NCBI RefSeq assembly: GCF_018408575.1
Contig: NZ_AP023418.1
Location: 372,001 to 436,000 of the forward strand
Length of the DNA stretch: 64,000 bases
From: Vescimonas coprocola
GTDB lineage: Bacteria; Bacillota; Clostridia; Oscillospirales; Oscillospiraceae
Direction: 5' to 3'
In this document: positions 14,230-34,489 of the stretch, piece after piece
Position numbering within the stretch: the stretch's first letter is position 1
Layout: each line of letters begins with the position of its first letter
Notes under the pieces: model-generated
The model's database searches: none
Seen by the model: only the letters and a program-made list of their open reading frames with translations
Told to the model about the DNA's origin: nothing
Position numbers and translations under genes: made by a program

Positions 14230-14331
14230 AAGCGCACTCTCTCTTTCTCCGGCATCAGCCGGTTAGAATTGACCATACGGTGTGCCGGAAGCGGCTGCCC
14301 TGCTGCATACCGAGCAAGTATGGTTTTACCA

Positions 14332-14360
14332 ATCATAGCACGATTTGGAAGAGATTGCAA
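14332..14360 (-). promoter_or_regulatory. Promoter of the first S8 protease gene
   Basis: On the minus strand TTGCAA and TATGAT are separated by 17 bases, about 100 bases before the protease ATG. Confidence 0.65.
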
Positions 14361-15096
14361 TTCTTGAGAAATATATTCTGGCGAAATTTTCGTTGAAAAT
14401 TTTCTCTTATGCAGGCATATTTTTGCCGAATTTAACAGTTTTTTCAAAAATGGAATACCGAATCGATTCGCCGAATGACTTACTGCGCAAAGAGGAATGT
14501 GCGTGACAGGAGGACAAAGATGAGAAATGTCCGGGAAATGGGCTATATAAAGGGTTAGCGAGGGCTAACCAAGGGCGTATGGAGGCGGGGGCGTCTGCCG
14601 GAGACGGACAGGGGTAGTAAAAGCTCCAGCCGACTTGGCAGAAATACCGTTGATGTCCTTTCCGCTTGCCGGAAATTGAAGGGCTATAACTGCGATGTGA
14701 ATTTTCAAGTCAAAGCCGAAAGAACATTTTGATTTTTCTCATTAGGGGGTGCAAGGGCGGCTTGAGGAAAGAAGTTCTCCGAATAAAGAAAAATCCAGAC
14801 CGGCCGGGCTTTTGCACCCCCTTGTCTGGATTTTTCCCGTATCACGGCGTTTTTTTAATAGGAAAATAAAAAAGGTACGGTAGCCCATTGTATCATGGAC
14901 TACCGCACTTCGTGGCAAATGACTCTAATTTTGATAGAAACCCGTTAAGGGGATGCAATTACGGTTTGGAGGGGGGTGCATTTTTGATTTTAGGGGGGGT
15001 GCAGTTCTTTGCCAAAGGAAGAGGAGCGCCTTCATGAAATAATGTGTTAAGGGAAAATAATTTTTTGTTAAAATGCATATGTTTTCCCCGCACCTC
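14361..15096. other. Gene-free stretch with palindromes and G-rich repeats
   Basis: No supportable coding region was found in over 700 bases. It contains a GGTTAG-N6-CTAACC palindrome at 14553-14570, a nested hairpin at 14744-14835, a short hairpin at 14878-14905 (GGTAGCCCA with its near complement), and the word GGGGGTGCA three times direct (14745, 14972, 14995) and once inverted (14812-14821). Composition shifts from the GC-rich protease gene to mixed AT-rich DNA, which fits the edge of transferred DNA. Confidence 0.6.
14744..14835. terminator. Two interleaved inverted repeats, possibly terminator-like
   Basis: AGGGGGTGCAA (14744-14754) pairs with TTGCACCCCCT (14812-14822), and AAAAATCCAGAC (14789-14800) pairs with GTCTGGATTTTT (14824-14835). 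The two stems overlap and cannot both form, so they would be alternative structures. The second ends in a T run on both strands. Confidence 0.5.
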
Positions 15097-15856: not shown

Positions 15857-16471
15857 ATGCAGGAACACAAGGATTTCTGGGACAAAAATGCCGGTCGGTA
15901 CGACCACTTTATGCGAAAGGATGGGGCGGCGTATGACGAGATGTATGAGCTGATCCGGCCAGTCGTGCGGCACAAGACGGTGCTGGAGCTCGCTGCCGGC
16001 ACGGGATTGATCGCAAAACACATCGTAAACGCGGCGGCACATATCGAGGCGACGGACGCCTCCGCAGAGATGATCGCCGAGGCAAAGCGAGATAATCGCT
16101 CGGCAAAGCTGCACTTTTCGGTGCAGGATATGTTCCGCCTGCCGTATGCGGAGGAGTCCTTTGATGTGGTGATCGTGTCCAACGCACTGCATATCGTGCC
16201 GCAGCCGGAGAAAGCCCTGCAAGAAATCAAGCGGGTTCTGAAGGATGACGGCGTGTTGATTGCGCCGACCTTTACCCACGCAGGGAACTCGTTTACCGGC
16301 AAGGTCAGGGCATTTTTTATGAAGCTGGCAGGTTTCCCTCTCCACAGCAGGTGGACGAGCGAGGAATACCTGCGCTTCCTACGGCAAAACGGCTGGGCGG
16401 TGCGGAAAAGCGCTGTTCTGAAGGCATCCTTCCCGCTGACCTATGCAGAATGTGTGAAATCGGAGGTGTGA
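15857..16471 (+). CDS. Class I SAM-dependent methyltransferase
   Basis: The 204-residue protein has a Rossmann-type methyltransferase fold with VLELAAGTGLIAKHI (motif I), an acidic ATDAS after strand 2, and DVVIVSNALHIVPQPEKALQEI (motif post II to III). It belongs to the broad UbiE/Methyltransf_11 group; the substrate is unknown. The ATG was chosen because AAAGGA lies 9 bases upstream; a TTG 18 bases earlier begins inside the operator region. It is followed at once by the start of a second methyltransferase. Confidence 0.85.
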   Translation: MQEHKDFWDKNAGRYDHFMRKDGAAYDEMYELIRPVVRHKTVLELAAGTGLIAKHIVNAAAHIEATDASAEMIAEAKRDNRSAKLHFSVQDMFRLPYAEESFDVVIVSNALHIVPQPEKALQEIKRVLKDDGVLIAPTFTHAGNSFTGKVRAFFMKLAGFPLHSRWTSEEYLRFLRQNGWAVRKSAVLKASFPLTYAECVKSEV

Positions 16472-16475
16472 TAAG

Positions 16476-16703
16476 ATGTCATTTTTTGAGAACACCAGAA
16501 AGCCTGTGGGGCTTGGCGGGAAAATCATGGTCGCCATGATGAACGTCGGGCACAGCGCCGTGGCCCGGTGGGGGCTTCAATTTCTGAATGCTGCGCCGGA
16601 CGCCAAGGTGCTGGACTGCGGCTGCGGCGGAGGGGCGAACATCAAGAGACTTCTGAAAAAATGCCCGGAGGGTAGGGTTCCATCTCATAGGGAAACGAAT
16701 TGA
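16476..16703 (+). pseudogene. Second SAM methyltransferase, truncated after motif I
   Basis: It starts with an ATG behind GGAGGTG and reads like a normal methyltransferase (MNVGHSAVARWGLQFLN, then motif I VLDCGCGGGANIKRLLKK) until about residue 67 (PEGR), where family resemblance stops and the frame ends after a few more codons. About two thirds of the expected protein is missing. Downstream DNA belongs to the helicase operon on the other strand. The break at about 16.67-16.68 kb is therefore probably the left junction of inserted DNA. Confidence 0.75.
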
Positions 16704-16738: not shown

Positions 16739-16777
16739 AATAGCCGCAAGACATCAAAATGATGTCTTGCGGCTATT
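16739..16777 (-). terminator. Strong terminator after the helicase operon
   Basis: A perfect 18-bp stem with an AAA loop, starting AATAGCCGCAAGACATCA, has T-rich flanks on both sides and can end transcription both ways. It lies five bases past the helicase stop. Confidence 0.85.
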
Positions 16778-16781
16778 GTTT

Positions 16782-19700
16782 TTATAGGTTATCCAATATC
16801 GTTTTTAGCGCATATGGTTTCGCATATTTCAAATGCGCGTCGCTTACGAAGATAGTGTTTTCTTCTACAGGCTTAGTCCACATGGCAGGGTAAACCACTA
16901 CTTTCTTTTTGCTGTAGCGGCCTTCTGCCCTAACAGGATCATGCTTGACATCGATATGGACACCGGAAATCTGTAGTATCTGCTCCAACGATTGAAGTAA
17001 ATACTGTTGATTTTTATCGGGGAGTGCAGATGCCCTAATGCCTGTTTCACCCCAGTTCAACAAATCAAGCGCAGCCTTGCGGTCAAGAACACTATGGATA
17101 TACTGATTGCGATAATGCTTCAAGCATTTATGGCATGCACTATCGCAAGAACAACCGGCAAGCAACTCTCTCGTCTTGGTAAGCAGTTTCTGAATGGAGG
17201 ACTCAATGCTGACGGCATAACCAGCACCACTCGAAAGACTGTCATATAAGTAGACATCGACGAAGTCACCGTTTTGATTGTGTCTAACACGATAGCCAGT
17301 GACAAGCTCAGTAAATTCGATATCCAGTTCTTGACATGCAGCTAAACGCAGCGCTTCCGCAAGAGACTGACCTGCCCGATTAAGCCAGGAGTTCCGTTGA
17401 GGATTTATATCAATCAACTGCCTGTCCAAGGCGAATTCTAACACAAGCATATCAGTAACGAAGTCATAGCCAAGATTCACATTATCGGTATCTGTATGCC
17501 TGCAGCGTGTTTTATTGAATTTGGAGCGATAGGGGCGAAGAATATCTTTTAGCACAACTGGGTCACCGCCAGGCATTGCCGCCCCGCAATCACAACAGAT
17601 AGTAAATCCCTTGCCACCAACACCTTTATTGAGCATGATAATTCGCTGATTTGGCCGAACTGCCATGCGAATATTAGCACAGTCATCAACATCTATAACA
17701 TCGTCAGCATCAGGCAAAGTGGAGTATAAGGGCTGCTGAGTTGCCGTATATTCTTCGTTCAACTGCGCCGTTTCAATCGATGTAGCATTTCTCGGCGCAA
17801 ATCCCCACGGGCGTAACATTGGCAGCATATTCGTCAAAACCGAATTACCGCAGAAGGGACAGGCTTCGTGATTATCCTCTTCCAAGCCAAACCATCCACA
17901 CTGCCCACATGTACGGATTGTTTTTCGATAGCTTGCATCGTTAATGAAGGATCTTGCGGGAGATGCAGCTGTTCGCTCGCTCCGCTCTCCACCAGGATAA
18001 TATAGACCACCGATCTGGTAGGTCGTTTTATCAACAACAATGGCTCTTCCGGGGGCATATTCACCGATAGCAACATCCAAACCTCGTTCAACTTGGTATT
18101 TTACTTTCCCCCCCATATCGGAGATATAGGTGCTAACGACATTTTTGGGGAAAGAATAGGTTGGAATGATGCCTTCTTCATAGAGCGCATCCAGTAGCGT
18201 TTTCTTTCCGGAGTCACTGTTATCATCTGTTTCGAACAGTTCGGGATGATTGTCTCGTTTCTGTTTCAAAGCAAACAGAGATTTTTCGAGATCGCCTTTG
18301 TAGCTGTACAATGCGCCTTGGGAATTTGCAGGAACAAGAATGTCATTTTCACTGATTTTGAAGGTCGTCAGAAAACCGCTAAAAGGCTGTAGGTGGTCGT
18401 CCAAAAACTCAATAGCAGAAATTGCATCCAGACTATTGGCTTTTGTTCTCAGATAGGATTGAAGTGCGACCATACCAAGATGACGCTGGACGATCTTCTC
18501 GCTGCCGATATCAATCCAAGGTCTCCTGGGATCACCTCTAAACATTGGCACAGGATTAGAGAAGTATAGAGAATCATGCGGTCCATCTTCACAGAACGTA
18601 ACGATTGTAGACAGACTTGAACCACGACGACCGGCACGACCGGCACGCTGCTGATAATTCTCTCGCATAGGGGGAATATTTCGTAGTCCAACAGCGACCA
18701 GTGAGCCAATATCGATACCCACTTCCATTGTAGTAGTACTGCTCAGAATATCAACTGGTGCCTCACCATCTTGTAGGAAATCTTGGAAACGGAGTTCATA
18801 CTGTTCTGTTTTGGACCAAAGCTCATCCCGCTGATCTTTGTGGGACAGCTGTGCGGTATGTTCTTCCGTATCAATTACACGGATAGTCTCACCCCGGAGC
18901 GCTTCATCAATAGGTGCGCGCCAGAAATCCAGTGCATCAATTTCTTCCGCTGTCATGGGATGGATTTTTTCACACTGGCAACTTGGACATTTTCCTCTCA
19001 GCAAATACGGAGTGAGCTCCGAACAGCGCTCACACCGGAACCAGGTATGCTCTAAATCGAAACGCGGTTTTACACGGGACAGATCGATATAATACTTTCC
19101 ATTAGAAGACTGCCCTTCGTCCATGAATTTTTCCCGCAAAATCCGACTCCATTTTGCTGCGATAGGATCATTATCGCCCCATCCCATTATTCCTCGTATA
19201 TCGGTAGAGAACTTTTTATCCTTATCAATACCATATCCTACATAGTTCGGGCGTACTTTTTCGCGGATTACATCAGGGATCGTATGGCCAAGGACCACAG
19301 AGGAATCACAGGTGGAAAGAATCCATGCATTGAACAGTTCCATAAATTCTTCCTCAGTAACTTCATTGCCTGCCTCCTCCAATGCGTCAATCGCATCCCA
19401 TTTTGCCGCATCTGTAGGCTCTATCCAGCTGAGTGCAGAGTCAATCAGCGTATTATATCCGCCGCAATAGAAACGAAAGAGTTGCTCTTTCATTTGTGCC
19501 GGCGCATTATCAATGGTGAAGCGAGGGGTGTATTGCTGGTTCCGTTTCTTTGCGCGAGTGTAATTCTTCAATGCTTGCGTGCCGTGCTCAATCAGTCTTG
19601 CTCGTTGCTTTTCGGTTTCACTGTCATGGAAAATCTGAACATGATGCTCCACGGCTACCATGGCAAAGTAGTCATAAAAATAATTCATGGACTGTTCCAC

Positions 19701-22049
19701 AACTTCTTGTTCCATTCGATCGATGGCAAGCGCAGCAAGCTGTCTGGCGGCTGTCATATCAGAAGCATCCGACATATCTCTTGCCAGCTTCGCTGCCCGC
19801 TGCCGACTATCCGAGAACAGCAGGACCTTTCGCCCTTCATTAGGCAGCCGATTCGGATCTCCTGTTTTTCCGGGAACCGCAGGCTGCGCCTGGAACTGTG
19901 CCTTGATCAAATTGAAGAAGGACTGATTGCCTCTTGTACTGAAAGAGGTAAGCTGCATTTTGGACAACTCATGACGGCAATGGGGACAAGTGGCAAATGT
20001 CAGAATATCAGGACGAGCCTTTGCGGTAAAACTGCTATAATACAGTTTTCTGATGCCCGGCTTTCCTTCCAAGGAATCATCCAAAAAATCAATAAAACCG
20101 CTATACACATCCAAATAACAAGGCAAAATTTTATTCTGTCCCTGTCTTTCCGGCAGCCGATAGTCGGCAGACGGAATAAAGAGGTGTATTTCCTTGACCT
20201 CATCTTCATTCATCATACCAGGTTGATGCCAAAGATAAGTGCGTTTTCTGGCTTCAAAATCCTGTTTTAGGACAAAGCCTCTGAAGAAAATACTACCGCA
20301 GCGGCGATCATTGTACAGCTCATAAACTGTGCTTCCACATTCCTTACAGGTCAAATTGCCATCCGCAAAATAGACTTCCCCCAATGTTAAACCATTTTCT
20401 GTGCGGGAATGAGAACACTTGGGATTTGTGCAAGCATAAACACCTTTGATTCCTCGGAAGAGCATGTGCATTCTCGCCGGAAATAGCACGCTGCCACTTT
20501 CGCTTCGTGCCAAGGGTGCAATTGCAAGCATGACACTGACAGCTTGAAGGGCGTCTTCCAGATTATTGTCTGGGAAAATGGATTCTGCCAGTTCTTGTAG
20601 AGAGGCCGCTGTACCACGGCAACGTTTGAACATTTCGCAGAAAGGCACATAGTCAATCAGGTGGTCATATAGCCACTGATATGCGTCTTCGGAGGAGCTA
20701 AATGGTGCAGCACTATTTGCGATGCCTGTCCAAAAGCGATTGAGTGCCATGAGCCTCTTCGGGTTATCACCCTCAAATTCATCGGGAAGCGATTCGTTGA
20801 ATTTGCTGAAAGGGATAGTGAACGCACTTCCGCTTCCAATTTCCTCTTGTTCACCAGTGAGATAACAGAACGGATGCATGTCGTCAGATGCAGTCAATTC
20901 ATTTGCAAATGTCCTGACGGCCTTCCGGTCATTCTCGTTATTGTTGGGCATACTTGCGGTAGTCAATATAAATTGAACTCTACTGCGATTAATGCCCAAA
21001 CGGTGGAATAAACGCCGTATGAGCAATGATACCTCGCCGCCTGCAGAACCACGATACATATGCGCTTCATCAATGACAAATAGAAGCTTATTATTCGGAT
21101 CTGCATTTAGCCATGCCTGAGTATCTGACCATATTTTATGCTCTCTTGGCCGAAGAAGCATATATTCAAGCATGGAGTAGTTTGTAATCAAAATATCGGG
21201 GCAGAATTGCTGCATTTCAAAACGAGTTACCAGTTCTGCATCCTCATCGTTCGGAATATGTTTTCCGTTATAGAGTTTTTCAAGGAATTCATCAAAATTT
21301 TCTTTGGCCGGTAGTTTTCCGTCCTTAATGAGTTTCTCTAAAAAAGCTTTTTCTTCATCGTTTTCAGGATTGACCATACGGGAATATGTTGCCGCAAGTG
21401 AACGGTCCTCACTACGTCGGGGCTCCTTACCTGCATAAGGAGTTCTTCCGGTATACATGCCGAATTGAGGGCGGCGGGAATTATTTCCACATGCGGTGCG
21501 GAATATATTTATAAATCGGTGGTCTGGATCACCAATCAAACGGCGCAAACGACTAATCTGGTCAGAAACCAGGGCGTTCATAGGATACATGATAATCGTT
21601 CGGACGCCACGCATAGCCCAGCTATCCGGGCTATTTCTTGCTTCTGAAGCAAGTTTTGCCATCAAGGGCCACATAAAACATTCCGTCTTACCAGAGCCTG
21701 TACCTGTTGACACAAACAGATCCTGACCCTCAAATGCCGCTTCCAAAGCGGAAATTTGGTGACAAAAAGGTGATGGGTATACGCCAAGATTGGCATCTGA
21801 TAGCGCCTTAAAATAGTCTTTCAGCCAATCAGGTAACTTGGGAGATGACTGGATTCCGTTTGTCGTACTTTTGTAAGCAGGTGATGATTCAACATACGGT
21901 TTTTGATAAAGAACACCTTCTTGATTCAGCTTATTTTGTGCAGCGGACAGCAAGATAGGCGACTTCCCAAAATATTGCGACTTTATATAGTTTTCCAGAG
22001 CTTCACGCAGTTGCAAGTGAACTCCGTTTGCACCATTGGACATAATCAT
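16782..22049 (-). CDS. Giant DEAH-box helicase with DUF1998/MZB-like C-terminus (YprA/DruE-like)
   Basis: The 1755-residue protein has an SF2 helicase core: Walker A STGTGSGKT at 114-122, DEAH at 327-330, motif III TTASM, and motif VI QQRAGRAGRRGS near 1190. A long insert with several Cys-pair zinc ribbons (CTNPKC/CKEC, CPHC, CERC/CPSC) splits the two RecA lobes. The C-terminus has CGQC/CPFC, CCDC and the four-Cys C-S-C-x3-C-x2-CLKHYRN-x-LDR segment typical of DUF1998 (MZB) helicases. Relatives include YprA, DrmA of DISARM, DpdJ and DruE of Druantia. It should be an ATP-driven nucleic-acid translocase and the effector or motor of the operon. Its start overlaps the gene before it (ATGA). Confidence 0.92.
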   Translation of the reverse strand: MIMSNGANGVHLQLREALENYIKSQYFGKSPILLSAAQNKLNQEGVLYQKPYVESSPAYKSTTNGIQSSPKLPDWLKDYFKALSDANLGVYPSPFCHQISALEAAFEGQDLFVSTGTGSGKTECFMWPLMAKLASEARNSPDSWAMRGVRTIIMYPMNALVSDQISRLRRLIGDPDHRFINIFRTACGNNSRRPQFGMYTGRTPYAGKEPRRSEDRSLAATYSRMVNPENDEEKAFLEKLIKDGKLPAKENFDEFLEKLYNGKHIPNDEDAELVTRFEMQQFCPDILITNYSMLEYMLLRPREHKIWSDTQAWLNADPNNKLLFVIDEAHMYRGSAGGEVSLLIRRLFHRLGINRSRVQFILTTASMPNNNENDRKAVRTFANELTASDDMHPFCYLTGEQEEIGSGSAFTIPFSKFNESLPDEFEGDNPKRLMALNRFWTGIANSAAPFSSSEDAYQWLYDHLIDYVPFCEMFKRCRGTAASLQELAESIFPDNNLEDALQAVSVMLAIAPLARSESGSVLFPARMHMLFRGIKGVYACTNPKCSHSRTENGLTLGEVYFADGNLTCKECGSTVYELYNDRRCGSIFFRGFVLKQDFEARKRTYLWHQPGMMNEDEVKEIHLFIPSADYRLPERQGQNKILPCYLDVYSGFIDFLDDSLEGKPGIRKLYYSSFTAKARPDILTFATCPHCRHELSKMQLTSFSTRGNQSFFNLIKAQFQAQPAVPGKTGDPNRLPNEGRKVLLFSDSRQRAAKLARDMSDASDMTAARQLAALAIDRMEQEVVEQSMNYFYDYFAMVAVEHHVQIFHDSETEKQRARLIEHGTQALKNYTRAKKRNQQYTPRFTIDNAPAQMKEQLFRFYCGGYNTLIDSALSWIEPTDAAKWDAIDALEEAGNEVTEEEFMELFNAWILSTCDSSVVLGHTIPDVIREKVRPNYVGYGIDKDKKFSTDIRGIMGWGDNDPIAAKWSRILREKFMDEGQSSNGKYYIDLSRVKPRFDLEHTWFRCERCSELTPYLLRGKCPSCQCEKIHPMTAEEIDALDFWRAPIDEALRGETIRVIDTEEHTAQLSHKDQRDELWSKTEQYELRFQDFLQDGEAPVDILSSTTTMEVGIDIGSLVAVGLRNIPPMRENYQQRAGRAGRRGSSLSTIVTFCEDGPHDSLYFSNPVPMFRGDPRRPWIDIGSEKIVQRHLGMVALQSYLRTKANSLDAISAIEFLDDHLQPFSGFLTTFKISENDILVPANSQGALYSYKGDLEKSLFALKQKRDNHPELFETDDNSDSGKKTLLDALYEEGIIPTYSFPKNVVSTYISDMGGKVKYQVERGLDVAIGEYAPGRAIVVDKTTYQIGGLYYPGGERSERTAASPARSFINDASYRKTIRTCGQCGWFGLEEDNHEACPFCGNSVLTNMLPMLRPWGFAPRNATSIETAQLNEEYTATQQPLYSTLPDADDVIDVDDCANIRMAVRPNQRIIMLNKGVGGKGFTICCDCGAAMPGGDPVVLKDILRPYRSKFNKTRCRHTDTDNVNLGYDFVTDMLVLEFALDRQLIDINPQRNSWLNRAGQSLAEALRLAACQELDIEFTELVTGYRVRHNQNGDFVDVYLYDSLSSGAGYAVSIESSIQKLLTKTRELLAGCSCDSACHKCLKHYRNQYIHSVLDRKAALDLLNWGETGIRASALPDKNQQYLLQSLEQILQISGVHIDVKHDPVRAEGRYSKKKVVVYPAMWTKPVEENTIFVSDAHLKYAKPYALKTILDNL

Positions 22050-23074
22050 TCCTCCACAAAGCAGTAACCCATTGATTCCAACTCATGTTTGAACATAGGA
22101 TAGATTTGCCTTGCCATCATTCTTGTAAAGACTTGGGGCGTTTTTGATGTAAAATCATATCGCACAGGCCAGCTATAGAGTTTGAAGAAGTTTTCTTCCG
22201 AAGGTGGCAGACGATAGCCAAGTTTGATTTCTATCAGACTTCCCTTTGCCTTCGTTTTGATTTCTGGAAGTGTTCCATGTTTTTTTAGAAGTGATATTGC
22301 AATCCTTCTATATTCGCCGTGGTTGCTTGGAACATTCGAAAAATAGTCCCGCATTCTCCATTCTGGAATCGGTGTATTCAGAAATACCCCATTACTATAT
22401 CGATAAAATACAAAAATTTTATTTGGCTCACCATATCTTGCAAGGGATATATGGTCATTTTTTTCGGGAATCTGTTGCCAATACCCCCATTTAAATGGAG
22501 GATCAAGCCGCAGAAACTCTGAGTTATCTGGCCATTCTATTTGTTTCCATTCGCAATGCGCCAACAGTTCTTCGAGATAGCTTTCAAACGACTGCTCCTG
22601 TAGACCAAACATTGATGATATTGTCCTGTCGGAAGTTGAAGTTTGAACGGAATAGAAACCCAATCCGCTCATAAATAACTTCAAGTCAGGTGAAATACCT
22701 CTGTGAAGAACAAGATCCCCATTTCCTCCAGTTGCAAGAGCGGCTGGGGATATTTGATAAGCGGAATGATAAAAGAACCCATTTCGCAGATAGATAGAGT
22801 ATATTTCCTCAATCAAATCCGTCTTGTCATGCGGGAGGAGAAATCCAATCTTCGGATAAATGCCCTCATAAGCATCAAAAATCTGGTCAATTCTGCTTTT
22901 GAAATGCTGAATAGAAACTGAACCTCCATCCTCGGTGTGATCCCAAAGCGAAGCGAGAGCCATTTGCCCAGCAACACTATAAACGACCCGACAAACCCAT
23001 TCGTTGTCATCTGACTGCGGAATATTTAATTGTCTTCCAATTGAAACAATTAGGTCGTTTATCATATCGTTCAC
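22046..23074 (-). CDS. Unrecognised 342-residue protein of the helicase operon
   Basis: No family is recognised. The protein is soluble, mixed alpha/beta and rich in aromatic residues in its C-terminal half (FKWGYWQQIPEK, IFVFYRYSNGVF, RLPPSEENFFKLYSWPVRYDF). There is no signal peptide, membrane span, zinc motif or P-loop. It overlaps both neighbours by four bases (ATGA), so it is made in fixed ratio with them and is likely a subunit or adaptor for the helicase. Confidence 0.85.
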   Translation of the reverse strand: MNDMINDLIVSIGRQLNIPQSDDNEWVCRVVYSVAGQMALASLWDHTEDGGSVSIQHFKSRIDQIFDAYEGIYPKIGFLLPHDKTDLIEEIYSIYLRNGFFYHSAYQISPAALATGGNGDLVLHRGISPDLKLFMSGLGFYSVQTSTSDRTISSMFGLQEQSFESYLEELLAHCEWKQIEWPDNSEFLRLDPPFKWGYWQQIPEKNDHISLARYGEPNKIFVFYRYSNGVFLNTPIPEWRMRDYFSNVPSNHGEYRRIAISLLKKHGTLPEIKTKAKGSLIEIKLGYRLPPSEENFFKLYSWPVRYDFTSKTPQVFTRMMARQIYPMFKHELESMGYCFVEE

Positions 23075-25119
23075 TCTTCCTCAATATATCTTGCAACTTC
23101 AGCTTTTACCGAACTGGAGATCCCGCTCTCGCCTTCAATAACATCCTTTAAGACATCCAATCTCCCGGTAAGTACGCAGAGAGGAAGCACACCAAAGAGC
23201 AGTTCCAAGTCCTTATCTTTTGCGGGATTCTCCAAAATGCATTTTGCATCGGACAGGACACGGGTTAACTGGCCCAATAGGAGTTTGCTAAGGCCCAAAC
23301 GCTTAAATGCAGATATCCGGAGAGACTGTTTTTCCTCAGAAACATATGGTTGGAACTTCTCAGTGCGTTTACTTGGCCATGTCTCGAGAGCAGGTAAACT
23401 TCCTATAAAACATTCACTCAGGACGGGGAGCATGTAATTATAAAGGCCTTTCGGCTCAATAAGCATATCCTCGACATATGGATGGGTCCAGATTATCTGC
23501 TTTTTGAGTCTTGTAAACTTCTGCGGTAATGCATCCGTCCACCCTTTTCCGAACATATTTTGAACCGACACAATAGAATCGTCAGCCTCGCTGATTCTTT
23601 CCACTATAGAAAGGTCACATTCATCTCCTAAAGTCAATTGTCCTGCTCCGTTTGCGTACATCGAAATAGACAGCACCTCAGCAATATCCTGTCCCCCAGG
23701 GCCTGCAATCAAAGTTGGCACATTGTTGATATGGGTTGCATACAGAAAAGCAGTGAGCATTGAGCAGAAGTCTGGTTCAATGCCCAACGCACATGACAAA
23801 TTCTGATAGATTGCATCATATTCATTGCGCCAGCTTTCTGCGAGTTCAATATCCTCATCAGAATATTGGCCACTGGTACCGCTGTATTGCCATGAGGCAG
23901 GGGGATTCCCATACGGCAAGGTTGCATTTGACTGAGGCAGAAAAACAGAAATATCAGCAATGAATCCTGCCATATCTTTTTGCGCGTCAGCAATTTTCTG
24001 GCGCACTGCGACCAGCGTTTCTTTTCCAATCGATTCATATTGCGCTATCTCTGCAAGTAACTGATCCAGTTCACCTTGTTTTGTAGCAATTTCTGCAAGT
24101 ATTTTACTGTGCTGCTTTTTTGCAATGGATATTGTTTCTTCCATTTCTGAAACTTCTGCCTCAGCTTTGGCAATTTCAGCAGCATGAGAATTATGCCATT
24201 CCACGGATACGGCTTTTTCGCATAATTCTCTTAATTCATCGTGATTCTTTGCAATTTCAGCCAACACATTAACATCGATATCGCCGACCTTAATCAGTAC
24301 ATCTGCTCGATTAACAAAATCATCAACTGCCTGTTTTGCTTGGTCCAGAGTACAATTTAGTTTTTGAACAATCGCGTCGTACAAAGATTCACCGCAAATC
24401 TTCTCAAGAAGAAGTTTGCAATGTTTCCATTCAGCCTTGGTGGCACCAATACACTCCTTAAACAAAGGCCATGTGGTGCGTTCAAGAATGAGCGTGCGAA
24501 TAACCTCGTTTGTATTTCCTATTGAAACGTATCCAGAAGGCTCTCCCGCCTGAAGTGTTTTTAGAAATCTTAGGTTACGATCATCCCAATTATAGATATC
24601 CCCGGAGGAAATTGTGTAGCTTGGCAGGGAATAGACAGTTTCCGAAAGTTTTGCACATCGATCCGAAATGTTGAACTCATTTGCACGACACAGTACGCCT
24701 GCGAACTGCCCCCATTTAGGTTCATAGCAAAAAAGTGTATCGCAAAAGTAAGCTTGTGTACGAGCAGTTCCATTCTGAAGTTGTTCAACCACTTCGTCTA
24801 AAGACTTTGCCATAAGAACTACTACACGTACCGGCGAGTAGTCTTTGACATAGTGCGACTGGACATAGTCAATTGTTGGGTTATCCCTATTAGGAATTGC
24901 TGTCCACTCCCAAATACCGACCGTTCCAAGCGCAGTAGGCCCATCGTTGCGGTACAGTCTATCTCTGTTTTCAAAATAGTTATCCGTCCGTTCTGACTTG
25001 AATGGTGTATGTAAAATATCATCTTCCACATCTGCTAAACGGTTCAGCCATATACGCCCTTCGTAATCTACAGTAATGTAGCACAGTGATGTGAAGGAAA
25101 CTTCATTGTCAATCATCAT
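23071..25119 (-). CDS. Coiled-coil protein with degenerate P-loop-like motif (helicase operon)
   Basis: The 682-residue protein has a beta-rich N-terminal part (about 1-170), a helical middle with a long coiled coil at about 300-400 (runs such as EIAKAEAEVSEMEETIS), and a C-terminal part at about 470-680. There TLIAGPGGQDIAEVLS stands where an AAA/McrB-type Walker A would be, but lacks the GK(S/T); it may be an inactivated NTPase. Function unknown. The start is one of two adjacent ATGs; the second is better placed behind GGGAGG. The gene overlaps its upstream neighbour by 11 bases. A DNA-sensing or scaffold role beside the helicase is inferred only. Confidence 0.85.
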   Translation of the reverse strand: MMIDNEVSFTSLCYITVDYEGRIWLNRLADVEDDILHTPFKSERTDNYFENRDRLYRNDGPTALGTVGIWEWTAIPNRDNPTIDYVQSHYVKDYSPVRVVVLMAKSLDEVVEQLQNGTARTQAYFCDTLFCYEPKWGQFAGVLCRANEFNISDRCAKLSETVYSLPSYTISSGDIYNWDDRNLRFLKTLQAGEPSGYVSIGNTNEVIRTLILERTTWPLFKECIGATKAEWKHCKLLLEKICGESLYDAIVQKLNCTLDQAKQAVDDFVNRADVLIKVGDIDVNVLAEIAKNHDELRELCEKAVSVEWHNSHAAEIAKAEAEVSEMEETISIAKKQHSKILAEIATKQGELDQLLAEIAQYESIGKETLVAVRQKIADAQKDMAGFIADISVFLPQSNATLPYGNPPASWQYSGTSGQYSDEDIELAESWRNEYDAIYQNLSCALGIEPDFCSMLTAFLYATHINNVPTLIAGPGGQDIAEVLSISMYANGAGQLTLGDECDLSIVERISEADDSIVSVQNMFGKGWTDALPQKFTRLKKQIIWTHPYVEDMLIEPKGLYNYMLPVLSECFIGSLPALETWPSKRTEKFQPYVSEEKQSLRISAFKRLGLSKLLLGQLTRVLSDAKCILENPAKDKDLELLFGVLPLCVLTGRLDVLKDVIEGESGISSSVKAEVARYIEEE

Positions 25120-26668
25120 TATCCCTCCCAGGATTATTTTGAATGGTTTTCCTGAGCAAATTTAAAGCTGTACGTGAAATTTCGCCTCGCCGCAAAGCCA
25201 TGCAGAGCCATTTTTGCGTTTGGGGATATTTCGAGAATTTACTGACAAAACTTCCAACTGCATGCGTTACAGGAATCATCGGGCCAGAGCAAGAACTCAA
25301 TTTTTTGACAAGTACAGCATCCAGCAACATAACATCCATGTTGACGGTTTCCTGCTCAAAACGAATGGAGCGAATGTAGTCGCAGCCTTGATAAAAATGT
25401 ATCTCTGTGCCAAATGATAGTTCGTCGATTGTTAAATGCTCCTCGCCAGAAAGCTTGTAGATATATTCGGTCTTACCGTTTCTTTGAACCACAGCCTTCC
25501 CATCATACGGGCAAGAAACTGATATGCACTTTAATTTAGGAAGTTTTGCATAGCTCTCTTCATTTAGCGTGTTGCCAGAATGGTCAGATATGATTATTGC
25601 TGGTAACGGCGCCTTTTTGCGCAGGGGTTGCTTTACCAAATAGGAGAAGCCCAATGCTCCCGATTTTCCGAGTGAAATTAACTGTTCTCTTTCTCGAGTG
25701 TAGAGCTTATACAGTTTTCCATCCTGAATACCCAGCACATTCGCTGTTGCGGGATATGATTTCAGTTCGGCATCATCACCACATAAATAGAAGTAGAACT
25801 CAGGTGAGTTGTGGTATATAAAATACGGATCATTGATGTATGCCGGCCATATAGGATAGAATTTCGTCGGTTTTTCGGTCAGGAAAATCGCGTATTTTAG
25901 GAAAAACTTCGCAGAGTAAGCTGAAAACTTCTTGATACGAATCTTGTACAGATACCAAGTAGTGAAAGGACTCGCTTGATTTCTTGCTACTTCTGTTGCC
26001 TCAATATCTGTATGGTAGGAATACAGTGGACATCGTTGTAATAAATAATAGGAATTCCCGGAATAAGCTTTTCCTCCGGATTGGAGAATCTGCCCAGTTC
26101 GGCCATCAAAGAAAGATCCTGTCGTATTAATTCCTGTTATTTTGTTAGACCAGAAGCGTTTTAGCTCTGTGTTAGCATTTACATACTCGACCCCGTAAAT
26201 CTGGCTCGGAATAGAGCCGACGCTTAAGTATGTTGTTCCAATCCGCTCAATTCGCTCAAACGAGTACTCATAAACTTGGTGTGAATCTCCGGCTATCTTA
26301 ATTTTGTCGCAGTGTGCCTTGTTGTCTGGAGGGTAGAAGAACCCTAATTGTAGAGAAAATATCGATCCTGTTACAACAAGACGCAAAGGCATTATATGGC
26401 TGTTAAGTGCTCGTAGCGATCGACCGTAGTTTGGATCAAAAGAGGCTTGGCGTTCGTCGCATTCTTTATTGGGAGAGGCCGGATCATGACGGAAGTGTTG
26501 AACATTCATACCAGGGGCGGTAAGTAAAACATTTTGTGCGCATAATTCACATACAAAATGGCCGCTTCGTGCTGACGCACCATAAGGGTACATTTCGCAT
26601 GCTTCTTCGACCGTGACACGACGATATCCAGTTTTAGAATCCCATACACATACATGCGTTAACGGCAT
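25109..26668 (-). CDS. CoiA-like zinc-motif protein (helicase operon)
   Basis: The first 80 or so of 519 residues resemble the N-terminal part of CoiA-family proteins: a short beta segment, then FVCELCAQNVLLTAPG, NVQHFRHDP and KECDERQ, a Cys/His set likely to bind zinc. CoiA proteins are linked to DNA processing in competence and carry a nuclease-like domain in some members; the remaining 430 residues here are beta-rich and unrecognised, with no clear PD-(D/E)xK motif. It is the first large gene after the XRE regulator and overlaps the coiled-coil gene. It may recognise DNA for the helicase; that is inference. Confidence 0.8.
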   Translation of the reverse strand: MPLTHVCVWDSKTGYRRVTVEEACEMYPYGASARSGHFVCELCAQNVLLTAPGMNVQHFRHDPASPNKECDERQASFDPNYGRSLRALNSHIMPLRLVVTGSIFSLQLGFFYPPDNKAHCDKIKIAGDSHQVYEYSFERIERIGTTYLSVGSIPSQIYGVEYVNANTELKRFWSNKITGINTTGSFFDGRTGQILQSGGKAYSGNSYYLLQRCPLYSYHTDIEATEVARNQASPFTTWYLYKIRIKKFSAYSAKFFLKYAIFLTEKPTKFYPIWPAYINDPYFIYHNSPEFYFYLCGDDAELKSYPATANVLGIQDGKLYKLYTREREQLISLGKSGALGFSYLVKQPLRKKAPLPAIIISDHSGNTLNEESYAKLPKLKCISVSCPYDGKAVVQRNGKTEYIYKLSGEEHLTIDELSFGTEIHFYQGCDYIRSIRFEQETVNMDVMLLDAVLVKKLSSCSGPMIPVTHAVGSFVSKFSKYPQTQKWLCMALRRGEISRTALNLLRKTIQNNPGRDNDD

Positions 26669-26689
26669 ATTTAGTCACCCGTACTCCCT

Positions 26690-26920
26690 TTATGGTTCTG
26701 TACTCTCCACAGGAGTGTCATCTTTGATAAAATCCATCATTTCTCCCGCATTGCAATCCATAACAGTGGCAATTTTAAGGAGGATAGATAGATTCACTTC
26801 TTGATTTTTTCGGAGCTTAGTAAATGTAGCAGAAGAAAGTCCTGCACGCTTGCGTAGCTCAGCTTTGCTCATCTCTCGTTCAGCGCAAAGGACCCATAAT
26901 TTTTTGTAAGTTACTTTCAT
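26690..26920 (-). CDS. XRE-family (Cro/CI) regulator of the helicase operon
   Basis: The 76-residue protein is almost entirely a helix-turn-helix of the Cro/CI type found in many mobile elements (KAELRKRAGLSSATFTKLRKNQEVNLSILLKIATVMDC). It is the first gene of the operon, 21 bases before the CoiA-like gene, with TATAAT about 30 bases ahead of its start. It probably controls expression of the whole system. Confidence 0.88.
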   Translation of the reverse strand: MKVTYKKLWVLCAEREMSKAELRKRAGLSSATFTKLRKNQEVNLSILLKIATVMDCNAGEMMDFIKDDTPVESTEP

Positions 26921-26940: not shown

Positions 26941-27010
26941 GGATTTATAAAATTATACTACTACGAACCACATCTGTTTTCAACATATTTCGCTTTTTCG
27001 CGAGTTGTTT
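26941..27010 (-). promoter_or_regulatory. Promoter region of the helicase operon
   Basis: TATAAT on the minus strand (26957-26952) precedes the regulator gene. No good -35 box sits at 17 bases; TTGAAA is 20 bases away. The short symmetric element TCGC-GAAAAA-GCGA farther upstream may be a regulator site. Confidence 0.45.
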
Positions 27011-27136
27011 CGATTGCATGAATTAAAGTTATCGCGAATCTAAACGCTTTTTTCTTTACGAGTGATTTTTTAAATATTTTGTTGGCTATTCTCCTCGTTC
27101 TGTGGTATGGTGTGTTGCTACCAGGAGGTGCAACAC

Positions 27137-27457
27137 ATGAAAACATTACTCAAGGACCTGTACGATTGCTTCTATACTCCGCCAGAGCTCCCAGCACAGA
27201 AGAAGGAAATCGAGGAATGCCATCAGGCACTCATTGAAGTGTTGGAAAAGCCGGAACGGCGGCTGGTGCTGCAGATCATCGACGCCAAAGACCGCATTGT
27301 GGAGGACACATCCATCGACAGCTTTATCTCTGGATTTGAGCTGGCGTGGCGGCTCTCTATGGAACTGAATCAACATGAAAAAGAGCGCTCAGTCTCTCGC
27401 TGTACGGCGAAAAGATTGGGCGCTCTTTCCATGTCCAGAAAGGAAGAAGCAAAATGA
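27137..27457 (+). CDS. Small conserved mobile-element protein
   Basis: The 106-residue acidic helical protein starts MKTLLKDLYDCFYTPP behind AGGAGGTGC. Proteins of this kind are common in integrative elements of Clostridia (possibly the family catalogued as DUF6809); no function is known. The stop overlaps the next start (ATGA). It opens the block of mobilisation genes divergent from the helicase operon. Confidence 0.75.
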   Translation: MKTLLKDLYDCFYTPPELPAQKKEIEECHQALIEVLEKPERRLVLQIIDAKDRIVEDTSIDSFISGFELAWRLSMELNQHEKERSVSRCTAKRLGALSMSRKEEAK

Positions 27458-27918
27458 AGAAGCTAATCACTACTGTAGCCGCATCCGCCGCCTGTCTGGC
27501 CCTGTGTGCCGCCGTGTGGCTGCAGAACGAGCCAGCCGTGGAAACATCTGCGTCGCCTACTTCGCCCGCCGTAATCGCCGCACAGCCCGAAGTTCCGGAG
27601 TTGCCAGAAATTGGAGAAATCATAATGCCAGAGGAAGAAAAGTCGGATGTAACGCAACCGGAGCCAGTCAAAGAAGCTGCCACTGCACTGGGGTCATCGC
27701 CTATTCAAGCGACTCCGTCGGGTGAAGTACAGGCTTCCCCTGAACAGAATGCCACACCACCGCAAGAACCGGGGTCTGCCTCGGCATCATCTGACAGCTC
27801 TCCGTACAACATGGTCTATGTGCCGGGCTTCGGCTGGATAGAAAGTCAAGGCCCCAACCATGTTGAATACGCCGAGGACATGTACGAGAACAGCAATAAA
27901 ATCGGCATCATGGGATAA
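27454..27918 (+). CDS. Exported Pro-rich protein (DUF6550-like)
   Basis: The 154-residue product has an N-terminal signal or anchor (MKKLITTVAASAACLALCAAVW), a low-complexity Pro/Glu/Ser linker and a conserved C-terminus (YVPGFGWIESQGPN followed by VEYAEDMY). Such proteins are repeatedly found in Clostridial integrative elements and resemble DUF6550. Likely anchored outside the membrane; role unknown. Confidence 0.75.
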   Translation: MKKLITTVAASAACLALCAAVWLQNEPAVETSASPTSPAVIAAQPEVPELPEIGEIIMPEEEKSDVTQPEPVKEAATALGSSPIQATPSGEVQASPEQNATPPQEPGSASASSDSSPYNMVYVPGFGWIESQGPNHVEYAEDMYENSNKIGIMG

Positions 27919-27928
27919 ACGAAAAGCA

Positions 27929-27959
27929 GTACGGTATCAGGCCAAGCCTGGTGCCGTAC
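27929..27959. terminator. Bidirectional hairpin between convergent genes
   Basis: A 14-bp stem starting GTACGGTATCAGGC, loop CAA, with two G-T pairs, lies between the stops of the exported protein and the sigma factor genes. Confidence 0.65.
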
Positions 27960-27962
27960 CGC

Positions 27963-28922
27963 TCATTCTGTTTCCTTCTCCAATGTGTCACTGAAAATCT
28001 TATGGACACGGATCAGCGAAACGACCTCGCAGATAAACCGCTCCATCAGTGCCTTTTCGTCCAACCATGTCCTCTGTGGCGTTGTGTACTGCCCAGAATT
28101 CGCTTCGGCTTCCGCCTTGGCCGCACGGATCGCTCTCTGTGCGGAAAGCCACTGTCCGTATGTGCCAGAATACAGATTTTTCCTCAGCTTCTGAAGAGCA
28201 GTCTTATACGCCTTCTCCGCTCCGCTGGGGCCATTGTAGTTGAGATAGATCGCCAGCTCCTGAAAGGTCATGCCGACCTCGTCCGGCTGACCGATGCCGA
28301 GGTAGCTTCGCACCAGATTCAGCTCTCTGGGCGTCAGCACCTCCTCCATCCGCTGCATCAGCAGCGTCCGACGCATGAGGCGGTCATAGGCAACAGCGGG
28401 ATTGCCGCCGCAGCTGACGGAGAACACATCGTCACCTAACTGCTGGACGCAAAACAGCGTCCGGTATTCTTTTATCAACGCCTCGGCTGCCTTGGAGGAT
28501 ACCTTCAACTTTTCGCATACCGCCTTGGTCAATTCTGTCTCTGAGGCATCCTGTGCCTCGACGCAGAGGTATGCCACCCTGCGCAGTTGGCTGCCGCGGC
28601 TGGCTGGGACGGACAGCGGGAAGGCATGCCGCGCGGCGTAGTCAGACAGCGTTGCTTCTATCGCGGGCGTCGCATAGGTCAGCAGCTTCGTTCCGTAGGC
28701 GGGATCAAAGCGCCTCGCCGCGTCCAGCAGTGCCAGCGCCGCCTCCTGCTTCAAATCCTCCATCTCACACAACGGTGTGTACGCCCACGCCAGGTCGGTG
28801 AGGTAGCCCTCGTTCTGTGCGACGAGCCGCTCCGCAGCGTTTTTGTCTCCGGCTTGCATTCGCAACGCCAGCTCTTCATTGCAGGGGCCGTCCCCGGCAA
28901 CGATGTACATATTTTTCGTCAC
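27963..28922 (-). CDS. Sigma-70-family factor of the mobile element
   Basis: The 319-residue protein has sigma region 2 (EDLKQEAALALLDAARRFDPAYG, then LLTYATPAI) and a region 4-like C-terminal helix-turn-helix (LTPRELNLVRSYLG, then MTFQELAIYLNY). The spacing and the LLTYATPAI segment resemble SigB/SigF-type or sporulation sigma factors. Encoded just after the zinc-ribbon gene. It may direct transcription of the element. Confidence 0.8.
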   Translation of the reverse strand: MTKNMYIVAGDGPCNEELALRMQAGDKNAAERLVAQNEGYLTDLAWAYTPLCEMEDLKQEAALALLDAARRFDPAYGTKLLTYATPAIEATLSDYAARHAFPLSVPASRGSQLRRVAYLCVEAQDASETELTKAVCEKLKVSSKAAEALIKEYRTLFCVQQLGDDVFSVSCGGNPAVAYDRLMRRTLLMQRMEEVLTPRELNLVRSYLGIGQPDEVGMTFQELAIYLNYNGPSGAEKAYKTALQKLRKNLYSGTYGQWLSAQRAIRAAKAEAEANSGQYTTPQRTWLDEKALMERFICEVVSLIRVHKIFSDTLEKETE

Positions 28923-28940
28923 AGGAATGGCCCCCCTTCC

Positions 28941-30050
28941 TCATTTCAGCCGATTCTCTGCCTCCGCGTAAATGTGTTCCAATTCCATGTCGTGCGCATA
29001 TCCGTCAGCGGCATAGTCGTTGTCCATCAGCGCCTTGTCCCGGTAGCTCCCCGCCAGATACAGTGCCTCCCGCCGCAGGTCATCGGAGATCTTCCCTCTC
29101 TGGTGATGCTTGCGGATGGTGTCGGTGCGGGTATTGAACAGGCGGTAGACCGGGTGCTGTTTGTTCTGCTCCTTCTGGTGCATCATCGCGCCATACTGCC
29201 GGCAGGTATAGCGGCTGTCCTGCGGGGCGACGCCGTCGCAGTATTTAGGGATGTGGCCGTTAGTGGTCAGAAAGTATCTCCCGCAGCCTTGGCACTGGCT
29301 GGGCGCGTGGCCGTGGTGCAATCCGTTCATCAGGTCATAGGTGTAGAAATCGGTCAGGCGCGGAAAAATCACCCGTTCCACAAACACCATTTCTTTTTCG
29401 TTTTTAGGACTGCGGGCAAACACATAGGAGGAGGACAGCTCCGGGTAGACCGTGAACGGCTCCATATCCAAGCTCTGTAAACTCCGCATCTCATCCCAAA
29501 ACTGCTCGCTGTTGAAGCAGTCATGCGCGGCCACGGCGAAATGTGTTTCGTTCCGTTTTTTCAGACGCCGCAGATAATCCAGCTCAAAGAACCGCCCCGC
29601 TGCATAGAAGTGGTACATGGCGATAGGGATGCGTATAATCCCGACGCAGAATCTCAGAAACTCTGTCTGGAGCTCTGAATTGGGCGTCCGTATTTGCAGG
29701 AGGTTTCTTTCGTCAAACAGGATATTGATCCGGCTCATTTCCTTCTCATAGTCATTGTAGCAAAAGGGCGGATACTTCCAAAGCAGTTCAGTCAGATACA
29801 GTATCCGTTCCCGCAGCTGCGGGAATACCGCCGCAGCGTCCTCATCGCTGCCCTGTACCACCACAGGGAACAGGAAGGTTGGTGCGCCGCCGGCCTGTAT
29901 CAGCTCCGGCAGTTCTTCTTCGGGAATGTTCAGAATGGACATCGCCATGAATCCCGCCGGAAACTCCTGCTCCTGATAAAAGATCTTGTCATTCCAGACA
30001 TCCATTGTGAACTGCGTGAAATCGTTGTTCTGCTGTACTCCCAGCGGCAT
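28941..30050 (-). CDS. DUF6076-like zinc-ribbon protein
   Basis: The 369-residue protein is mostly helical with a single C-terminal zinc-ribbon-like knuckle (CQGCGRYFLTTNGHIPKYCDG) and the tail seen in DUF6076 proteins of Firmicute mobile elements. No catalytic motif was seen. It lies 18 bases before the sigma factor gene and is probably co-transcribed. Function unknown. Confidence 0.75.
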   Translation of the reverse strand: MPLGVQQNNDFTQFTMDVWNDKIFYQEQEFPAGFMAMSILNIPEEELPELIQAGGAPTFLFPVVVQGSDEDAAAVFPQLRERILYLTELLWKYPPFCYNDYEKEMSRINILFDERNLLQIRTPNSELQTEFLRFCVGIIRIPIAMYHFYAAGRFFELDYLRRLKKRNETHFAVAAHDCFNSEQFWDEMRSLQSLDMEPFTVYPELSSSYVFARSPKNEKEMVFVERVIFPRLTDFYTYDLMNGLHHGHAPSQCQGCGRYFLTTNGHIPKYCDGVAPQDSRYTCRQYGAMMHQKEQNKQHPVYRLFNTRTDTIRKHHQRGKISDDLRREALYLAGSYRDKALMDNDYAADGYAHDMELEHIYAEAENRLK

Positions 30051-30197
30051 AGCATCGCCCCCTGTCCCATATCCGTTTTACAGCTGTCCCGCGATATTCT
30101 CATTCTATCAAAAAAGACAGAATAATCAAGTGAAAGGGTTAGAGCCTCGACTGCAGCGAGGTCTCTGCCCTTATTCTTTTATCTGGAGGAACAAAAA

Positions 30198-31265
30198 TTG
30201 AAAAAAGAAAACCGATTACTGACCATCGACGGTGAAACGCTGATGAGTCAGCCGCTCACACCGCTGAACTTCGTGGTGGACACGCTGCTCTCTCAGGGTC
30301 TGCACATCCTCGCGGGCTCACCCAAGGTGGGAAAGTCATGGCTGGCGCTGTGGCTGGCCGTCACGGTGGCGAAGGGCGATCCCGTCTGGGGCATGGGCGT
30401 GAAACAGGGCACCACGCTCTACCTCTGCCTGGAGGACTCCACCCTCCGCATCCAGAACCGTCTGTTCGAGATCACAGAGGACGCCCCCGCCAACGTCCAC
30501 TTCTCCACCAACAGCGATACCCTTGGCAAGGGTCTGGAGGAACAGCTCCGCGCGTTCCTCTCAGAGCACCCCGACACGGTGCTGGTTATCATCGATACGC
30601 TGCAAATGATCCGCGGCGCCGGTTATGACAACACCTACGCAAATGACTACCGTGACCTCTCTGCTCTGAAGCAGATTGCGGATGCCCACGGCATCGCCAT
30701 TTTGCTGATCCATCATCTGCGCAAGGAGAGCGCTGACGATGTGTTCAATCGCATCTCCGGCACCACCGCCATCAGCGGTGCGGTGGATTCCAGCTTCACG
30801 CTGGTGGAGGAACGGCGGGGCAGCGGCAGAGCGAAGCTCTCCTGTATTGGCCGTGACATTGAATACCGGGAGCTGACACTGGAGCGCAACGGTGAAAATG
30901 TATGGGAGCTGGTGTCGGACAGCCGGACACAGCCAGAACTGCTGGGCGACCGCATCATTTATCTTCTCTCTGAACTAATGCGTGAGCGAACCAAATTTAT
31001 CGGCACTCCCACAGAGCTGTCTGAACGAATCGACCCTGTGGGGGTGGAGCGCATGTCACCCAAGAAAGTATCCCGACAGATCCTGCAAAACCTTGACGCA
31101 CTAAGGAAAATCGGCATTTCCGCCGTGGTGCGCCGCAGCAACGGCAAGCGGCTCATCGAGCTGCGCCGTGCCGAAAGTGACGATACACAGGATACCCAAG
31201 TTGTTGACCCTATCGACCCTGCCGATGTCTCAGGCGGTGAGAACGCCCCGTGTTTCGCCCTGTAA
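30198..31265 (+). CDS. RepA-like AAA ATPase
   Basis: The 355-residue RecA-fold ATPase has Walker A AGSPKVGKSW (about residues 39-48), Walker B VLVIIDTLQMI and ILLIHHLRKE, typical of the RepA/AAA_25 group of replicative or plasmid helicases. The N-terminus contains MSQPLTPLNFVVDTLLSQGLHILAG. The start is TTG, 8 bases after CTGGAGGA. It may act in replication of the excised element. Confidence 0.85.
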   Translation: MKKENRLLTIDGETLMSQPLTPLNFVVDTLLSQGLHILAGSPKVGKSWLALWLAVTVAKGDPVWGMGVKQGTTLYLCLEDSTLRIQNRLFEITEDAPANVHFSTNSDTLGKGLEEQLRAFLSEHPDTVLVIIDTLQMIRGAGYDNTYANDYRDLSALKQIADAHGIAILLIHHLRKESADDVFNRISGTTAISGAVDSSFTLVEERRGSGRAKLSCIGRDIEYRELTLERNGENVWELVSDSRTQPELLGDRIIYLLSELMRERTKFIGTPTELSERIDPVGVERMSPKKVSRQILQNLDALRKIGISAVVRRSNGKRLIELRRAESDDTQDTQVVDPIDPADVSGGENAPCFAL

Positions 31266-31780
31266 GCCGCTGTGTGCGCGGTTCGGGGCTGGGGTGGTGT
31301 GTGTATCCGCTGAGGGGATATTCAGCCCGCACAGGGCGAGCACTGCGGCGGCATAAAAACGGCGAATACGCCGCCGTGACCCGTGGGCGTCCAGCGTTTC
31401 AACGGCATGAAGCGCACGCCGAGGGTAGTGATACCACCCCCATGCAGGAACGCCGAAAAAGTGCTGTGTGCAGGAGAAATAATCCCTTAAAAACCGGATG
31501 AAGAAACATTTCATTTCTCTGCCGCAGATGGGAAATTTCTCTGCTTAAGCCGTTATTTCCAATAGGCGCAGGGAGTTTCCTTTTACAGGAGTCTTATCAC
31601 CTCCGTTGGAGGTGGCCAGCATCGCATTTGTCTGGTCTGCGGCGAAGCCGCTGCCCTGCCAAATGCTCTGGGCGGGGCGTGGCCCCACACCCCATTTTCG
31701 GGCAGAAGCCCACACCCACTTGAAGCCCCCCCCAGCTCTCCGAGGGGACGAAAGAAATCATTTCAGAAAGGTCATTGATT
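31266..31780. other. Non-coding stretch before mobC, possible oriT
   Basis: No gene is supported in about 500 bases. The part nearest mobC (about 31620-31740) is rich in short inverted repeats (GGGCGGGGCGTGGCCCC and flanks) as expected for an origin of transfer next to MobC and relaxase genes. This is inference from position. Confidence 0.4.
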
Positions 31781-32086
31781 ATGAAAAAAGATATCAAATT
31801 CAGTACGCGCATGGCGTCCGCCGACCGCGAGAAGATCAAGGCGCTGGCAGCGAAGGCCCATATGTCCATGAGCGACTACGTCACCGCCTGCTGTCTCGGC
31901 AAGCGGATCATTGTCATCGACGGGCAGAAAGAACTGCTCCGCCAGCTCAAGGGCATCGGCAGCAACATCAACCGCCTTACCGTCCTCGCCAACATGGGCA
32001 AGGTGCAGGTCATCGGCCTCGACAAGGCCGCGCAGGAACTGTCCGAGGTCAGCGCCGCTCTGCGGTCAGTCTTGGAAGGTCGGTGA
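31781..32086 (+). CDS. mobC: MobC-family relaxosome protein
   Basis: The 101-residue protein has an N-terminal ribbon-helix-helix pattern (IKFSTRMASADREKIKALAAKAHMSMSDYV) and the C-terminal IGSNINRLTVLAN typical of MobC. It would bind the origin of transfer and help the relaxase nick. It lies six bases ahead of the relaxase gene. Confidence 0.88.
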   Translation: MKKDIKFSTRMASADREKIKALAAKAHMSMSDYVTACCLGKRIIVIDGQKELLRQLKGIGSNINRLTVLANMGKVQVIGLDKAAQELSEVSAALRSVLEGR

Positions 32087-32091
32087 GCCGT

Positions 32092-34487: not shown

Positions 34488-34489
34488 TG

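Follow-up and report, generated by a model that had tools for sequence, protein, structure and literature searches.

A probable DruA-less Druantia operon beside mobile-element genes in Vescimonas coprocola

Five minus-strand genes of Vescimonas coprocola, beginning with a small regulator gene and ending with the gene of a large helicase, raise the question of whether they encode a new kind of anti-phage system, as the initial annotation proposed, or a variant of one already described. The genes were analysed within a 64,000-nucleotide stretch of contig NZ_AP023418.1 (the window) and in 21 related loci (L002–L017 and L054–L058; G194 is the L011 record and G352 the L008 record). We conclude that they probably form a Druantia operon, druB-druC-druD-druE, without DruA and with its own small XRE regulator, and that the operon is a putative defence system. 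It looks like a Druantia variant and not a new kind of system. It was not filed as type I because the DruA feature of the described type I is missing.

Gene order and genomic setting

The list of open reading frames confirmed the five minus-strand genes in overlapping order, and all five frames were open (Table 1). The overlaps were 11 bases between genes 2 and 3, and 4 bases each between genes 3 and 4 and genes 4 and 5. The stop codon of the XRE gene lay 21 bases from gene 2. The promoter scan that gave the candidate site upstream of the XRE gene returned 24 such sites, compared with 20.2 in shuffles.

Table 1. Features of the operon and its surroundings, with positions in the window
Feature	Position	Strand	Product (aa)	Remarks
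XRE-type helix-turn-helix regulator gene (gene 1)	26690–26920	−	76	
Probable druB (gene 2)	25109–26668	−	519	
Gene 3, DruC place	23071–25119	−	682	
druD (gene 4)	22046–23074	−	342	GTG start
druE (gene 5)	16782–22049	−	1755	
Candidate promoter-like site upstream of the XRE gene	26955–26983	−		weak, 9/12; inferred
Hairpin past the druE stop	16739–16777	−		18 pairs; likely terminator
SAM-methyltransferase-like frame	16471–16670	+		by eye
Secreted subtilisin-like protein	8626–14229	−	1867	by eye
Mobile-element genes	27107–46404			

The GC content was 0.42–0.50 across 16–28 kb of the window versus 0.60–0.64 left of 14 kb. A sigma-like factor, an AAA_25 protein, a serine recombinase, a MobA/MobL relaxase and a resolvase were encoded in the right flank, where the mobile-element genes also included one with DUF6076. 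The mobile setting described in the initial annotation was thus found again, as a low-GC block adjoining mobilisation and recombinase genes. The methyltransferase-like frame ended abruptly just left of the cassette, and its remaining half was not found within the window; it looks as if an island had inserted into this frame. Farther left, the subtilisin-like protein carried a dockerin-like stretch and, at its C-terminus, a membrane segment.

The helicase and its partner proteins

The druE product matched the PADLOC model DruE1 (PDLC00013) with 1723.7 bits, its residues 3–1751 aligning to positions 3–1770 of the 1776 in the model. The other best DruE models were DruE2 (644 bits), DruE4 (596 bits) and DruE3 (539 bits). 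Its Pfam domains were DEAD, Helicase_C and MZB, the last of these (MZB/DUF1998, PF09369) with 42.8 bits at a cut-off of 24.2. By eye, the protein contained a Walker A motif (GTGSGKT) and a DEAH box, and it retained a QRAGRAGRRG motif. The initial description of a 1755-residue DEAH helicase with a DUF1998/MZB end, of the kind found in DISARM, Dpd and Druantia, was therefore correct. The C-terminal tail was short (approximately 110 residues beyond the MZB match), with no nuclease motif visible by eye. Bell et al. reportedly describe type I and type II DruE as having an inactivated C-terminal Vsr domain. Solved structures related to DruE by sequence were 9tu7, 9wae and YprA (6znp). In a DruE tree with long branches, which the program flagged as unsafe, the window grouped with loci of the BCDE arrangement including L054 (100/100), separate from type III. 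We assign gene 5 to the SF2 helicases of the YprA/MrfA family, in the type I DruE branch.

Gene 4 matched the PADLOC model DruD1 (PDLC00008) with an E-value of 4.9e-11 over residues 5–319. The same model was matched by 14 of the 15 aligned gene-4 rows (E ≤ 0.1), the DruD of L054 being among the rows. Gene 4 is accordingly identified, by its sequence, as Druantia DruD.

The match of gene 2 alone to PADLOC DruB1 was weak (E 0.012). Nine of the 15 aligned gene-2 rows matched this model (PDLC00005) at E ≤ 0.1, one of them being the P. putida DruB itself. The protein has an N-terminal zinc-type module (CxxC...H...C) followed by beta-rich domains, and its structure model was of middling confidence (pLDDT 70.4). 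It had been called a CoiA-like zinc protein. The zinc-type residues C40, C43, H61 and C70 were invariant in all 15 aligned rows, including that of the window, whereas the match to CoiA_N was weak and below the cut-off (E 0.018). The zinc motif, place and length, with the weak model match, indicate that gene 2 is probably a diverged DruB.

Gene 3 is built of an N-terminal beta domain (residues ~1–200), a coiled coil (~313–390) and a degenerate AAA+ domain (~428–666); its structure model was likewise of middling confidence (pLDDT 77.7). The broken P-loop reported for this coiled-coil protein is real, none of the 14 aligned rows, that of the window among them, having the lysine. The gene 3 protein of the window had no DruC1 match of its own in PADLOC. 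DruC1 was matched by three of the 14 gene-3 rows (best E 4.8e-6), compared with eight for one JetC model and seven for one LmuB model, the latter two being coiled-coil models. When nine rows were rescanned, DruC1 matched two of them, the short form of L005 at E 4.8e-6 and the long form of L057 at E 3e-4, in both cases at model positions 221–414, which comprise the coiled coil and the start of the next part. Matches of gene-3 relatives to DruG (L010, E 0.016; L012, E 0.46) were at chance level and lay on the coiled coil.

The short form of gene 3 was present in the window, L002, L005 and L008–L011, and also in L015, where its start is cut. Six long forms (L006, L007, L012, L014, L056 and L057) shared one N-terminal domain, which was also found in the L054 and L055 proteins encoded between druB and druD (pairwise E 9.5e-31 to 6.6e-6 in a 14-sequence comparison). 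The latter two proteins are called DruC by place because they had no DruC1 match at E ≤ 0.01; that of L054 had none at this threshold, and that of L055 reached E 0.024, ranked under many coiled-coil models. As whole proteins they scored 116 and 118 bits against the gene-3 family profile in a four-sequence search, with a weak C-terminal link (11.1 and 6.7 bits). The P. putida DruC scored −1.6 bits against the gene-3 profile. In L003 (6220–6915) and L004 (6217–6900), the N-terminus of gene 3 was unlike that of the other long forms, and the part in L003 had no Pfam match. We regard gene 3 as DruC by place and general build, without a firm sequence match, and as a probable strongly diverged or rebuilt DruC.

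The partner proteins had initially been described as unlike those of known systems. This description was not upheld: gene 4 is DruD, gene 2 is probably DruB, and gene 3 is weakly DruC-like and occupies the DruC place. To a large extent this is the outcome that the initial annotation had itself named as evidence against its proposal. With the DruE1 match of 1,724 bits over the full length and the match to DruD, the idea of a new system with unfamiliar partners was abandoned.

Conservation, mosaic structure and lack of DruA

The neighbourhood survey supported co-occurrence across genomes for genes 2–5, but not for the XRE gene. The order of the four genes was kept in 16 of the 21 related loci (L002–L012, L014, L015, L054, L056 and L057), with gene 3 counted by place. 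Among these, L004 had druB in two frames, L015 had a shortened druB, and in L012 druE was split and ran off the contig. In L013 the contig start cut gene 3 and the remainder agreed with the operon order. L016 began inside gene 3, with druD split and druE truncated beyond residue 258, and L017 was a fragment. L055 contained druB, the gene in the DruC place and a short druD, with no DruE in the remaining 0.8 kb. L058 (8008–15162) had a same-clade DruE of 64% identity next to a SIR2-like protein; B, C and D were missing, and DruE started in another frame. In the order search, near full-length DruE1 was found in 6 of 394 genomes among the matches listed, the window's own included; the match in the L058 genome had one stop, and G033 and G361 had partial DruE matches. 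Conservation of the DruA-less four-gene set extended to genomes with DruE identity as low as 57%.

The XRE protein matched the NCBIfam VanU model with 62.9 bits, below that model's cut-off of 150. Its gene adjoined the operon in the window, L002, L003, L005 and L008. A tblastn search (E ≤ 1e-3) found no further XRE gene in L002–L017, a set in which the relevant stretch is absent from L013, L016 and L017 and only 639 bases long in L010. No XRE relative adjoined the operon in L054–L058 among ORFs of at least 60 aa. Since it is present in few related loci only, the XRE gene is an optional part and not core.

The window and L009 had only positions 16782–26670 in common (89% DNA identity), and the window and L011 only 16742–26670 (88%); the common part is genes 2–5 without the XRE gene. 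Similarity to the window continued as far as window position 28.8 kb in L002 and 32.3 kb in L008. In 180-base blocks, these four copies showed 94–100% identity over druD, druE codons 1–360 and gene 3 (in L008, gene 3 from the fourth block on). Beyond codon 360 of druE, one block was at 88–92% and the rest at 65–84%. The first 180 codons of gene 3 were at 62–78% in L008, in contrast to 98–99% in the other three copies, and the first 120 codons of gene 2 were at 71% in L011, in contrast to 91–99% in the other copies. A patch of 73–75% at gene 2 codons 181–240 was common to all four. This block pattern points to recombination. The sharp differences at the 5′ end of gene 2 or of gene 3 suggest that the differing N-termini might be exchangeable recognition modules. 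Ten large flanking proteins were also scanned: three were restriction-type helicases or HsdR (L009, L011 and L013), that of L006 was SMC-like, one was without a match, and five were unrelated to defence by name.

As stated in the initial annotation, genes 2–5 had no methyltransferase, PLD, DpdA or DruA/DUF4338 match (Pfam, PADLOC and NCBIfam). A Pfam PF14236 search detected no DruA anywhere in the window's genome. DruA was also absent from 18 of 19 other genomes carrying related loci, a set without the L016 and L017 genomes in which several are drafts, so that a miss is possible. In the controls, the P. putida plasmid pKF715A and a haloarchaeal plasmid were positive, and 14 standard control genomes were without a match. 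The one exception was the genome of L015 (G797), in which DruA was on a different contig (82,883 vs 46,952 bases) and fused to an SspF-like ATPase, with an SspH-like protein and a marginal match to SspG next to it. Across the phylum, 47 of 398 genomes had DruA-family matches. Six plasmid relatives from other phyla (L048, L049, L065, L066, L067 and L069), all non-type-III and with DruE typed by PADLOC for L048 alone, each had an annotated DruA or DUF4338 gene in the stretch.

DruA cassettes that are not Druantia were seen at L064 (310–10844; a DruA–SspF-like ATPase fusion, a marginal SspG-like protein and an SspH-like ATPase), at L049 (1–5482; DruA, an SspF-like ATPase, an SspG-like protein and a gene annotated as FtsK, cut by the stretch end) and at L069 (1–4472; by annotation, a layout similar to the Ssp-like DruA cassette). 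DruA may partner Ssp-type genes. A literature search of limited scope found no text naming a DruA-less Druantia type. At the level of sequence, the family membership of DruE and DruD, the kept gene order and the lack of DruA are established for the operon.

Interpretation and comparison with known systems

The operon might instead belong to a new class of anti-phage system that shares its helicase and DruD with Druantia and has its own recognition proteins. The missing DruA, the gene 3 protein with no DruC1 match and a beta domain not seen in the DruC-place proteins of L054 and L055, the gene 2 match of only E 0.012, and the weak, partly coiled-coil DruC1 matches of gene-3 relatives are consistent with this. 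We nevertheless consider it unlikely, given that DruD and DruE match across nearly their whole length in a druB-C-D-E order, that gene 2 has the zinc motif and place of DruB, and that the long gene-3 relatives share an N-terminal domain with L054 and L055. That the operon serves housekeeping DNA repair, in the manner of MrfAB/YprA, is scarcely credible: the family does include the solved helicase YprA (6znp), but DruE1 was the best match by far, full-length relatives were limited to 6 of 394 order genomes among the matches listed, and the cassette shows a mobile setting and mosaic recombination.

The absence of one partner of the described five-gene type, together with broken genes in relatives (L004, L012, L015, L016, L055 and L058), could also reflect a degraded type I operon that is decaying after the loss of druA. 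All five frames of the window are open, however, and genomes whose DruE is as little as 57% identical still carry this DruA-less set, which decay would hardly be expected to give; we hold decay to be very improbable. It seems just as improbable that DruA is required and supplied from elsewhere in the cell. DruA-family genes do occur in the phylum (47 of 398 genomes), and the six plasmid relatives of other phyla have a DruA/DUF4338 gene nearby, but no match was found in the window's own genome or in 18 of the 19 others (several of them drafts), and in both G797 and L049 the DruA gene is part of an Ssp-like cassette.

As a probable DruA-less Druantia, the operon is predicted on present evidence to work like type I. 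By analogy with YprA/MrfA and the Druantia helicases, DruE would act as an ATP-driven DNA translocase or helicase on phage DNA after its entry. The anatomy of genes 2–4 suggests that their products could form a complex that recognises infection and loads or releases DruE. Such a division into sensor and loader on one side and motor on the other would resemble type III, in which, according to an excerpt of PMC13192584, the helicase-nuclease DruE is the effector and DruH probably the sensor. Because its AAA+ domain lacks the P-loop lysine, gene 3 might serve as scaffold and switch, and the recognition target would be set by the exchangeable N-terminal parts of the gene 2 and gene 3 products. Sequence searches of genes 2–5 turned up no recognisable nuclease domain, so the likeliest outcome would be that phage DNA is blocked or unwound and that the system does not itself cleave it. 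The XRE protein probably holds expression of the operon low until required.

More tentatively, the clostridial DruBCDE may be a distinct, DruA-independent type of Druantia with its specificity in swapped N-terminal modules of DruB and a rebuilt pseudo-ATPase DruC. If so, DruB and DruC modules would swap between strains on a near-constant chassis, similar to the target-recognition domains of restriction systems. The Druantia mechanism papers found concern, in the excerpts available, type III, and a natural DruA-less set indicates which Druantia genes may form the core. The near copies whose main differences lie at the beginning of gene 2 or of gene 3 are ready pairs with which to locate the phage-recognising part. 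Searches that require DruA would overlook such loci.

Among known systems, DISARM, Dpd and ARMADA share with the operon a YprA-family helicase with a DUF1998/MZB end (the comparison contained no ARMADA-specific model). DISARM differs in having a split DrmA/DrmB helicase, in contrast to the single chain found here, and DrmA reached 37 bits; the methyltransferase and PLD protein of DISARM had no match among genes 2–5. The matches to Dpd were to its helicases only, DpdJ (73 bits) and DpdF (24 bits), each covering a part of gene 5, with none to DpdA for any of the five proteins among the matches listed. According to excerpts of PMC13316683 and PMC8565338, Druantia types II, III and IV consist of DruMFGE, DruH-DruE and DruE-DruF-DruL, respectively. 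They have the DruE helicase as their core, like the operon, but other partners: no DruH, DruM, DruF, DruG or DruL was among the PADLOC matches listed for the five proteins (for the helicase, the best 25 of 29 matches), and the window DruE scored 539–644 bits against their models compared with 1,724 for type I.

Type I Druantia is DruABCDE, as given in an excerpt of PMC13316683. Its representative here, pKF715A (NZ_AP015030.1, L048), carries a plasmid operon druA-B-C-D-E with PADLOC scores of 715 (DruA), 762 (DruB), 902 (DruC), 387 (DruD) and 2,332 bits (DruE). The window's operon resembles it in the B-C-D-E order, the full-length DruE1 family, the DruD family, the DruB-type zinc module and a coiled-coil protein in the DruC place. 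It differs in lacking DruA, in the strong divergence of gene 2 and above all of gene 3, and in a DruE that is approximately 31% identical to that of pKF715A. In L054, directly after druE, there is an ORF that by eye resembles DNA-adenine methyltransferases (14090–14929). This locus (G744, same phylum) has the B-C-D-E order of the window, and no DruA was found in its genome; its DruE is 37% identical, and its 527-aa DruC-place protein is without the beta domain of gene 3. The DruB and DruD of L054 gave full-length matches to the type I models of PADLOC (815 and 566 bits). As the DruA-less L054 fits these models, the neighbourhood of the operon already lies within the known library.
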